Assembly: GCA_036971475.1 (NCBI GenBank)
Contig: JBAIZL010000005.1
Span: 163,386,886 to 163,450,885, forward strand
Source: Prosapia bicincta
Lineage: Eukaryota > Arthropoda > Insecta > Hemiptera > Cercopidae
Direction: 5' to 3'
Length of the DNA stretch: 64,000 nt
The translations under genes and the position numbers were made by a program. The notes under the pieces were generated by a model. The model was not told the origin of the DNA, did no database searches, and was given only the letters and a program-made list of their open reading frames with translations. Shown one piece after another: positions 47,066-50,000 of the stretch. How positions within the stretch are numbered: position 1 is the stretch's first letter; the number at the start of each line of letters is the position of its first letter.

Positions 47066-50000
47066 TGTTGTGTTGCTGCGGCACCGCAGAGAAGGAGGAC
47101 GAAGGGAAAGAGGATGGTGGTAAGTTAAAACAAAGCCTGCTTATATCCTAATATATTACTAAGTTCAATGTAACTGATGACACCTTTAATTTCTCTTATG
47201 TAACTTATTTAATTGGTCTGAGAGTGTTTAGGTCGTATTTTTTAAAACTCAATACATCATTCTTGGTTAGTTTAGAGACGTTTATAGTTTTAAGCAGCAG
47301 CTACAGAAATGTATTGTTTGATACATTTTTAAAATATAAACATTCTTTCTGTTTTAGCCGCAAGTAAAAGCCCTACCGGATGTGAAAAGCAAGGAGCAAC
47401 CGGACGTGGTATGTTATAAATTTTTGTAAACTAAATTAAATATTTCTTATAAAAACTTGTGTATAAAATATAAGCCTAAATAGCTGCCTAACATACCATT
47501 ACAGTTTTGTGAATTATTTATGAAAAGATTTCGAATTACTTAATATATATACTTGCGAAAGTTGCAAGTTTTTTGCTTTTTAAATAAAACTCATAAGTTT
47601 ACTTCTACAAGATCTACTAACAACTGTTTATCAAAGCAATATATGTGTTGTACCTCATAAATTACTTTTTCTGTTATAGACGAAACCAGTTCAGTTGATG
47701 ACCTCACCTGGACAATCAGCACCAGAACTGGTGAGTTTTAAATCCAATCTGATGGTTTACTTAAACATGTTATAGTAGGAACCATTTACCTAAGCTACAT
47801 ATACCAAATTCTTACTACACTTTGTAATGCTAAAATGAATTAGCTGTTCGAAACCACCGAACGTGACTACTATAGACAGCTATGAGGGGTGGCCTTAACA
47901 AAGATATTTAAATAACTCTGAATAGTAGTTACAACAATTTTGTTAGATGATTTTAACTTTGTAAACCATTTTTAAGATAAATATGACTTTTGCCAGAAAG
48001 TGGTTGCAATGAGAATAGTAATTTATGGACTAAATGTTTATTTACTATATATTTATCTGTTACAGACTATGACTCTGTTTCCTGTGAATTTGAGCTAAAC
48101 TCAGAGAGCGGTAAGTTTTTTGCGCTTTAAATAAACTATAGTTTATTTTCACATTATTTAATCACAACTGTCTCAAATTAATAATCTATTTTGTACCTCA
48201 TTAATTACTTTTCCTGTTCTAGGCGACAGCGATACAACGTATTGCTCTGGGTTTAGCTCCTTCGCTGGATTTGGTAAGTCTTCAAATGATTATTTACTTT
48301 AACATGTTATAGTAGGAACCATTTACCTAAGCTACATTTACCAAATTGTTACTACACTTTGTAATGCTTAAATTGATTAGCTGTGTGAAGGCACCACCGA
48401 ACGTGACTACTAAAGACAGCGAGGAGTGGTAGCCTAGACAAAAATATTTGCATACCCTGAGTAGCAGTTATAACAATTTTGTTACGTGTTTTGAAATTTT
48501 AACTATTTTTATTTTAATATTATTTTTGCCAGAAAGTGGTTGCAATGAGAATAGGAATTTATGGACTGAATGTTTATTTACTGTATCTATCTGTTACAGA
48601 CGACAACATCGACTATTCACAGGAAACGAGCCAACACACTGGAAGTAACTACCTGTCTGACAGTGATCTTTTCACGGAGTGCGGTAAGTTTCTTGCGTTT
48701 TGAATAAAGCTGTGAAGTTTATGTTTACATGATTTACTAACTCATGGAATGAGAAGTAGAGTTTGTGGGTTCTATGAAAAAATTTCCTATGCGTTATTTT
48801 TTACGTTAGCAAAATGTTATTGAAAATATTTGACAATAAATTTCCTTATTAAATAAAATCTGTTTATTTGTTACAGAAGGATACGTTGACTATGAAAAAT
48901 TAAATCGTGAATTATATCAAGACTTTTGTAAGTAAAATTATTTCATGTATTAGTATTATTCTTGGTTGTTCCAGAAACTTTCATGTTCTTATTGCATACT
49001 TAGTGGATGAGTTTAAGTTATTTAAATTTAGTTTTGTTTGATTATTCAGGATATTTGTTAACCTTGTCTAGCCGTAGCAAAGTATTTAACTTATTATTTA
49101 TCTTAAGTGTTTGTACCTACATTTAAATGTAATTGCAGATGATATAAATGTATTATTTGTTAAAGTGAAGGGTTGGGGTCGGGTGTCGGTTGTATGTATC
49201 TAAACTTGTCCACCTTCCCTAATTAATTTTTGTTCTATTACAGTTGTTGTTTTCATATTTCATTTCTCAATTCCCATAATTCTTTTTCAAAACAGGTTTC
49301 CAAATTAGGAAAAATAAAATAGGATAGAAAACTTTGTATATTTGTAGACCTATGTAAAACCTTACTTTAAATAAACGCCCCTTAAGAGATTAGGCATGAA
49401 ATCAAAATGTTACAGATGTCCTTAAACAATTCTGGTTACGTTAACTGTTTCCATTAGACCATTGCACTTCAGTAAGATACAGAATAGATAATTTAGAGTT
49501 TAATTTAGAGGTTAGGTAGAATTTGAGCTAATGGGATCCCTTCTGTTTGTATATCCAATTTTCTGTTTATGATTGCCTTGTTCTCCTAGGATATGATAGC
49601 ACTGACAAACATACTCTCCGCTCGCGTAACCGGTATAAAACTATACTTGAACTTCATACCACAAACGCACAAACCTAAGTTATTATCTACCTGGTGAAAT
49701 GATATTTACTTTCGTCTAAACAGGCCCCTGGAAGTTTTACTTCCTAAGACTTAATATCTTTCCTAGCGGAATAACAGATTGTTTTAACTAACCATCGAAT
49801 AGCTGGTTTACCATGTATTTCAACAAGTTTTCTAAGAAATATATGATATCCTAAGATGTGTTTCTTTGTTTGTTTTCAGTGACGCTACGGCGCTTGGATA
49901 GCGAGACGAGGGCGAAGAAAACACCATGTAAGACGCCAAGACTAATTTAAATAGATTTTTAAGCTTAGAAATAAGTACAACCTTATATGCATTTGCCTTA

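Follow-up and report, generated by a model that had tools for sequence, protein, structure and literature searches.

A duplicated micro-exon cassette with similar introns and diverged exons in a dispersed gene family of Prosapia bicincta

Results

Organization of the gene

The window is a stretch of 64,000 nucleotides from the Prosapia bicincta assembly GCA_036971475.1 (contig JBAIZL010000005.1, positions 163,386,886 to 163,450,885 of the forward strand). We read in it a predicted gene of ten small exons, called W below. Its features are as follows, in positions of the window.

38587-50912, + strand: proposed gene with 10 exons and phase-1 introns, predicted from reading of the sequence
38587-38614, + strand: exon 0, with the start codon and the opening part of a likely signal peptide (MGLWAVLKM up to the exon border), donor GTAAGT, phase 1; placed by its counterpart in locus L049
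39645-46373, + strand: 107-bp minisatellite inside the first intron, also found upstream of the copies behind L048 and L049
47066-47119, + strand: exon e1, 54 nt; joined to exon 0 it reads LLCCCGTAEKEDEGKEDG
47358-47408, + strand: exon e2, 51 nt
47564-47679, + strand: B0, intron-B-like segment forming the 3' part of intron 2; starts with a GCAAGT relict donor
47680-47730, + strand: exon e3, exon a of cassette 1, 51 nt, DETSSVDDLTWTISTRT
47731-48065, + strand: intron A1
48066-48110, + strand: exon e4, exon b of cassette 1, 45 nt, DYDSVSCEFELNSES
48111-48222, + strand: intron B1
48223-48273, + strand: exon e5, exon a of cassette 2, 51 nt, GDSDTTYCSGFSSFAGF
48274-48599, + strand: intron A2
48600-48683, + strand: exon e6, exon b of cassette 2, 84 nt; varies more than any other exon in the family
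48684-48876, + strand: intron B2; its clear match to B1 is limited to the first 53 nt
48877-48927, + strand: exon e7, 51 nt, EGYVDYEKLNRELYQDF; also recognizable in L039 and L041
49880-49927, + strand: exon e8, 48 nt, donor GTAAGA
50857-50912, + strand: exon e9, proposed last exon, stop codon TGA; read by eye from the downstream DNA and frame

Exons e1 to e8 (47066-49927) are each bordered by AG and GT, have a length that is a multiple of three and open at codon position 2; in e3 to e6 the phase-1 frame is open throughout. All eight internal exons of the model measure 45-84 nt. Exons contain 47% G+C, introns 29%. Exon 0 was located through conserved DNA upstream of the 107-bp minisatellite. 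Its ATG, frame and donor are identical in L049 (6279-6306), where it encodes MGLWAVIKM. Many units of the minisatellite, in the window as well as in L048 and L049, carry TTTACTCTTTCAG, a splice-acceptor-like motif.

The TGA that ends e9 is common to L046, L047, L030, L033 and L020, and is absent in L034. An in-frame TAA at 49948, just past e8, was dropped as the end of the gene because it is absent in all 13 other copies that are readable there. The predicted protein has about 172 residues, begins with MGLWAVLKMLLCCCGTA, and is acidic and serine-rich. This product is small and probably secreted; its N-terminus, judged by eye, resembles a secretion signal. No Pfam match was found for it at an E value of 1, and no convincing PDB match.

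Divergence of the duplicated cassettes

The middle of the gene contains a tandem duplication (47564-48683) of the unit intron B - exon a - intron A - exon b, which gives the order B0-e3-A1-e4-B1-e5-A2-e6-B2. The initial annotation had placed exons 3 and 4 and exons 5 and 6 in tandem copies with introns about 80-90% alike by eye. The alternating B and A introns, each found twice, confirm the arrangement, and the alignments confirm the likeness. A1 and A2 (47731-48065 and 48274-48599) are identical at 279 of 323 positions, with 15 gap columns in addition. The intron B pair (47560-47680, as cut, against 48111-48222) is identical at 91 of 111. Across the two cassettes the introns are 82-86% alike, and the levels of A and B agree with each other (Fisher p=0.28), which dates the introns on both sides of e3/e5 alike. 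The intron match is not due to chance (84.6% over 319 nt, E 7e-96). Intron B is present twice in full, and a third, partial copy begins at 48684. In the distant relative L038, the stretch before the GCAAGT of B0 resembles an old exon b by eye.

The exons are far less alike. Without gaps, 20 of the 51 positions are the same in e3 and e5, the count made in the initial annotation, and with gaps 25 of 45; the score does not rise above that of shuffled bases (P 0.10). Exons e4 and e6, whose unequal lengths (45 and 84 nt) had also been noted, agree at 31 of 45 gapped positions with 39 gap columns (P 0.0085 in global and 0.38 in local alignment). Compared to intron A, the difference is significant for e3/e5 (Fisher p=4.5e-6 gapped, 3e-12 ungapped) and for e4/e6 (Fisher p=0.007). 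In windows of 25 columns, identity is 0.64-1.0 well inside introns and 0.2-0.6 over exons. The earlier claim that the exons have diverged far more than the introns since the duplication is borne out by these alignments and p values, which contradict the opposite case of equal divergence.

Two further features of the introns were seen. Intron A contains a run of 37 identical nucleotides and is uneven in identity (P 0.03 and 0.01). This is a hint of local constraint or conversion, and it counts against the explanation that we consider best. In addition, at its 5' end B1 has somewhat more variants in common with B2, and at its 3' end with B0. This suggests that the B introns may have exchanged sequence, a reading that is not firm since the 3' end of B2 is too different.

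To express the divergence as rates, we used a codon model whose neutral rate was set to the value of introns A and B (0.164). With very short exons and introns as the clock, omega is 10.8 (7.4-33) for e3/e5 ungapped, 8.2 when only its 13 outer codons are used, 2.9 (p=0.016) over ten codons of a gapped alignment, and 3.1 (1.6-5.8) for 11 codons of e4/e6 aligned by hand. Dating the duplication by the deepest relatives instead (0.42) still leaves an omega of 3.9 for e3/e5. The introns may be slower than other non-coding DNA here, and the omegas of the duplicated exons would then fall. Third codon positions in e3/e5 are better kept (10 of 17) than first and second positions (5 of 17 each), a weak signal (P 0.04) in the direction expected for amino-acid change. 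The e4/e6 tail carries no third-position signal (5, 6 and 5 of 15). Fast early divergence of the duplicated exons, measured against introns, is well supported. It is only for this old duplicate pair, compared to introns, that fast exon change is clear.

A dispersed gene family

The assembly comprises 2,207,215,594 bases in 361 contigs, and all family comparisons below are between paralogues of this one genome. A search with the cassette (1041 bases) returned 57 matches. In 22 places, including the one in the window, the match spans 995 or more of the 1041 query bases (83-100% identity); in four further places it spans 811-896. Among the first 20 rows, 15 lie on contig C313 or C79, with others on C260, C199, C286, C146 and C333. 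W belongs, as read from these matches, to a dispersed multigene family with copies on seven contigs.

We aligned 25 sequences. With L036, which is diverged, and L032b, which is visibly broken, left out, intactness was counted in 23 copies. Fifteen are intact in e1 to e8, five are intact where readable (L014, L015, L017, L028 and L032a), and three have a defect (L021, L025 and L026). Twelve fetched loci with partial or distant matches stand outside this count (L029, L033-L035 and L037-L044); in one of them, L035, exon 6 contains a stop, as judged by eye. Insertions and deletions in exons measure 3, 3 and 10 nt, the last in a defective copy, and e8 is missing (48 nt) in two cases. Adjoining copies form inverted-repeat pairs at L032 (C333:53.23 Mb), L025/L026 (C79:182.36 Mb) and L029 (C146:15.70 Mb). 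The family was not found in print in a literature search that covers few subscription journals and is not sequence-based.

Further features of the window and the assembly are recorded here. Pieces of a BEL/Pao retrotransposon lie at 53678-58648, with DUF1759, Peptidase_A17 and DUF5641 matches in separate frames. Matches to an integrase zinc-binding domain and to Transposase_1 occur among the scanned frames of the window. A non-LTR retrotransposon fragment at 35492-37336, with a reverse transcriptase match (PF00078), is presumably jockey-like. A search of viral contigs with a transposon piece returned no relative. Tandem repeats of 28 bp with a similar unit (CTTAGGTAAAGCC...) lie at 10586-11020, 14973-15330 and 16662-16959, the last array being reversed. 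The odorant receptor family 7tm_6, which is not known from outside the insects, has 39 matches in the assembly, which mark the genome as that of an insect. A large contig contains a 16S gene (L050, C340:60.4 Mb) with an exact 79-base match to 18 records, 17 of Chryseobacterium and one of Epilithonimonas; this gene is probably assembly contamination. Four full-length 16S genes of another bacterium (L051-L054), 95-99.8% alike, lie in the large contigs C146 and C199. We take their type to be Rickettsiales-like, and they are possibly old insertions from a Rickettsiales symbiont.

Origin of the a exons

The relative L036 connects the two diverged a exons. Its first a exon measures 44 nt and contains a stop. 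Tested against 300 shuffles, this exon resembles e3 of W, e5, and the a exons of L038 and L040 (P at most 0.01). L036 is 0.16-0.18 from the A introns of W. Since its exon is similar to both e3 and e5, these two are divergent copies and not unrelated inserts. Exon replacement, which had been proposed as one source of the divergence, is therefore not needed for e3 and e5.

In trees of intron A, A1 groups with A1 of other loci and A2 with A2, and L036 is undecided. This grouping by position indicates that the intron clock between cassettes was not reset recently. It makes a recent event of gene conversion limited to introns, raised earlier as a way to explain the pattern with no selection on exons, unlikely between the cassettes.

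Cassette number varies among relatives. One a exon each was recognized in L038, L039, L042 and L043, and L040 has five tandem cassettes of about 440 bp (2500-6500), the first and last a exons being devoid of an intact donor. Within the L040 array, exon copies are 89-91% alike, repeats containing introns 63-91%, and two A introns 89% with gaps. The exons of L040 are not faster than its introns, and this array is a counter-example to a general rule of fast exons.

Selection among present copies

We compared 18 family copies to examine how the exons evolve now. Exons other than e6 have dN 0.044 and dS 0.111 (dN/dS 0.39). The ratio is 0.15 for e3 and e5 together, 0.52 for e4, and 0.24 for e6 (dN 0.12, dS 0.50). 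No exon set tested among the 18 copies has dN/dS above 1; the tested sets are under purifying or relaxed selection. The strong diversifying selection suggested in the initial annotation is partly supported: the past divergence of the duplicated exons exceeds that of their introns (omega 10.8, 2.9 and 3.1), and a continuing dN/dS above 1 was not seen in the 18 copies. In e4 and e8, second codon positions are at least as diverged as third positions. Among 21 sequences, codon positions 1, 2 and 3 differ by 0.042, 0.040 and 0.088 outside e6, and by 0.143, 0.098 and 0.233 in e6. The intron pairwise difference in these 21 sequences is 0.044 with a stretch of L026 masked; the 18-copy mean of 0.056 is too high, as it includes this misaligned stretch (intron 7). 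Four comparisons with the older relatives L034, L035 and L036 put amino-acid change at 1.2-2.1 times the intron rate, which is not significant, as 1 lies within or at the edge of the intervals. Silent change is also high against older relatives, as in e3 of W and L034 (dN 0.17, dS 0.9, introns 0.10).

The introns are themselves slow. In 11 of 13 usable pairs their divergence lies below that of the stretch upstream of e1, and is lower by as much as about one half. Between W and L022, the introns differ by 0.037 and the upstream stretch by 0.061. Silent sites outside e6 differ at 7 of 88 in this pair, near the upstream value; relative to introns, silent change is about 2-2.5 times higher outside exon 6 and about 9 times higher in exon 6. 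The silent excess outside exon 6 is close to the upstream non-coding level. The excess of exon silent sites over introns therefore arises in part because the introns are slow. The raised silent sites also indicate that selection on amino acids alone is insufficient. Within introns, the rate of change at G/C sites is 1.3-3.8 times that at A/T sites. CpG decay was rejected as the cause of fast exons, because in introns CpG sites change at a rate only a little above that of other G/C sites.

Exon 6

We compared exon 6 between two groups of copies, one with W, L010-L016, L018, L020 and L031, the other with L022-L024, L026 and L027. In bins of 12 bases, the groups differ by 0-10% upstream of the exon, by 25-37% in its first six bins (72 nt), by 3% in its last bin and by 1-11% in the following intron. 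The edges of the divergence are step-like and located at the splice sites. Of 300 blocks of 84 nt taken from introns, not one reaches the divergence of exon 6. On an intron tree of 18 sequences, exon 6 has 92 changes at 84 sites and introns have 485 at 1307. This excess sits on L027, L022, L020, L030, the stem of L024/L026 and the stems of the first group.

Silent sites share in the excess. Among codons of e6 that encode the same amino acid, W differs from L022 at 7 of 18 (introns 0.037) and from L032a at 3 of 16 (introns 0.105). Within the first group, the silent distance in e6 is 0.12, compared to 0.03 in introns. The youngest ten copies show no excess in exon 6 (10 changes at 84 sites and 161 at 1307, as sums of rows). 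When variable sites in any copy are counted by base class, a test that conditions on variability, exon 6 is not exceptional. L020 carries a first-group (W-type) exon 6, yet its introns fall outside that group. With exon 6 of W as query, a search of the assembly gave 13 places among the best candidates scored, and with that of L024 it gave 16; all lie inside places already found with the cassette, and neither exon type returned a donor exon or a retrocopy. The excess in exon 6 is limited to the exon and includes silent sites, and simple selection for new amino acids does not account for it.

Discussion

We lean toward an explanation in which a micro-exon family underwent a cassette duplication, the duplicated exons passed through an early burst of change and were then conserved, and old versions of exon 6 were kept apart by selection. 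The middle of the gene would have grown by tandem duplication of the two-exon cassette, perhaps through unequal exchange between B introns that were already similar. Because each exon is a multiple of three and in the same phase, the duplicate is predicted to splice with no break of the frame. Slow drift would then have brought the introns to about 0.15-0.2 substitutions per site. Once independent of each other, the duplicated exons may have evolved at several times this pace, through substitutions and through length changes that keep the frame. They would have reached separate roles through this burst, which we infer to have been adaptive, and each is conserved among present copies. Exon 6 appears to have stayed fast in several older lineages of the family, where its change is confined to the exon, extends to silent sites and shows a mosaic ancestry. 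Selection would hold the old exon-6 versions apart, and conversion or recent duplication would keep the surrounding DNA alike.

Gene conversion could play a larger part than this. If it keeps introns alike among copies, or did so early between the cassettes, and selection removes tracts that overwrite exons, the exons would look older than their surroundings. Theory predicts such an exon peak between low introns, in the sections cited here (PMC3924837). The joint rise of silent and replacement sites in exon 6, the mosaic of L020 and the low divergence of introns relative to upstream DNA in 11 of 13 usable pairs all fit. The step-like edges of exon 6, which are not graded, and the spread of copies over several contigs do not. 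The separate A1 and A2 lineages would leave e3/e5 unexplained unless conversion was early. We regard conversion as a possible but less likely main cause. More doubtful is a process that goes beyond selection on amino acids and is limited to micro-exons, in exon 6 now and in e3 to e6 in the past, where it would raise silent and replacement change several-fold and stop at splice sites. It could consist of templated change from spliced RNA or of the movement of selection-protected exon lineages among the dispersed copies.

A raised mutation rate within exons, above all in exon 6, with purifying selection trimming the replacements, would account for dS in exon 6 exceeding the intron distance in each grouping at dN/dS below 1, including the silent distance within the first group. 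We consider this quite improbable, since the youngest ten copies have no exon-6 excess in total change, silent rates outside exon 6 lie near that of upstream DNA, and intron CpG sites exceed other G/C sites only a little in rate. We also know of no mechanism that would halt mutation at splice sites. Replacement of the exons by unrelated or distant sequence, through segment switching or through conversion from cDNA or a distant paralogue, would explain why the likeness of e3 to e5 is at the level of shuffled sequence, why change stops at splice sites and why silent sites are raised. It is equally improbable, because L036 bridges e3 and e5, and because no exon-6 copies of the W or L024 type were returned outside known family places among the best candidates scored.

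Two further readings are weaker still. The sequences could be a decaying repeat and not exons, for which the absence of a Pfam match and of a convincing PDB match and the presence of broken relatives (L021, L025, L026, L032b, L036, and L035 with its exon-6 stop seen by eye) would be no surprise. This is very unlikely, as 20 of the 23 copies retain the reading frame and the splice sites wherever they can be read, silent changes outnumber replacement changes per site, and exon indels are few. A chance or non-genic origin is rejected by the conserved frames. Finally, copies of a mobile element inserted independently at unrelated exon positions would give similar introns next to dissimilar exons. 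This is extremely improbable, because two different introns alternate in the same order (B-A-B-A-B) and type-a exons recur beside intron A in relatives; independent insertion in two introns is rejected by this alternation.

Comparison with known systems

The bicycle genes of aphids, phylloxerids and coccids (Stern and Han, 2022, PMC9168663) provide a close structural parallel. The sections cited give them about 17 exons on average, describe internal tandem duplications in megacycle genes, and report CYC motifs as absent from published non-aphid homologues. As in those accounts, the family described here is a rapidly diverging multigene family of an insect with many small internal exons, which open at codon position 2 (all eight here, nearly all there). 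The N-terminus of W (MGLWAVLKMLLCCCGTA), judged by eye, may be a secretion signal of the kind that bicycle proteins carry. Expression in salivary glands and a saposin-like fold are further marks of bicycle genes. Unlike aphid bicycle genes, its exon translations have no clear C-Y-C arrangement by eye. The W protein is also acidic and serine-rich, with about 10 exons compared to about 17 in the sections cited. In structural terms W may work as a bicycle gene does, as a frame-safe string of phase-1 micro-exons that is lengthened by duplication and varied exon by exon.

The pattern of divergence resembles ASSET in snake three-finger toxins, where introns are more than 85% alike and parts of exons 12.5-50% alike in the data cited (PMC2474615, PMC2711939); the portions cited leave the mechanism open (PMC2711939). 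In both cases similar introns flank radically different segments, and the difference is limited to exons. Unlike ASSET, e3 and e5 have not switched to unrelated sequence, as L036 bridges them. ASSET, in these descriptions, is seen between paralogues and within exons that encode a disulfide-held fold, whereas in W the divergence is also between duplicated exons of one gene, and concerns whole micro-exons with in-frame length change. Micro-exon genes of schistosomes share, in the parts cited, the many short exons, the secretion that is probable here, lineage-specific copy expansion and fast evolution (PMC4350168, PMC10526429), but they belong to flatworms and this family to an insect. Opsin-type divergence peaks under gene conversion likewise place a diverged exon between similar introns (PMC3924837). 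The case in the cited sections involves two linked genes, whereas here the copies are many and dispersed and conversion is only proposed.

W may therefore be said to resemble bicycle genes in structure and ASSET in pattern, and we claim membership in neither. Exons that outpace introns are known from venom genes, where they are described between genes. Here they do so between duplicates within a single gene, for which one relative still has an intermediate, and among the many copies of a chromosome-scale genome. Since the silent sites of exon 6 share the excess, the family allows a direct test between selection on amino acids, conversion with protected exons, and mutation limited to exons.
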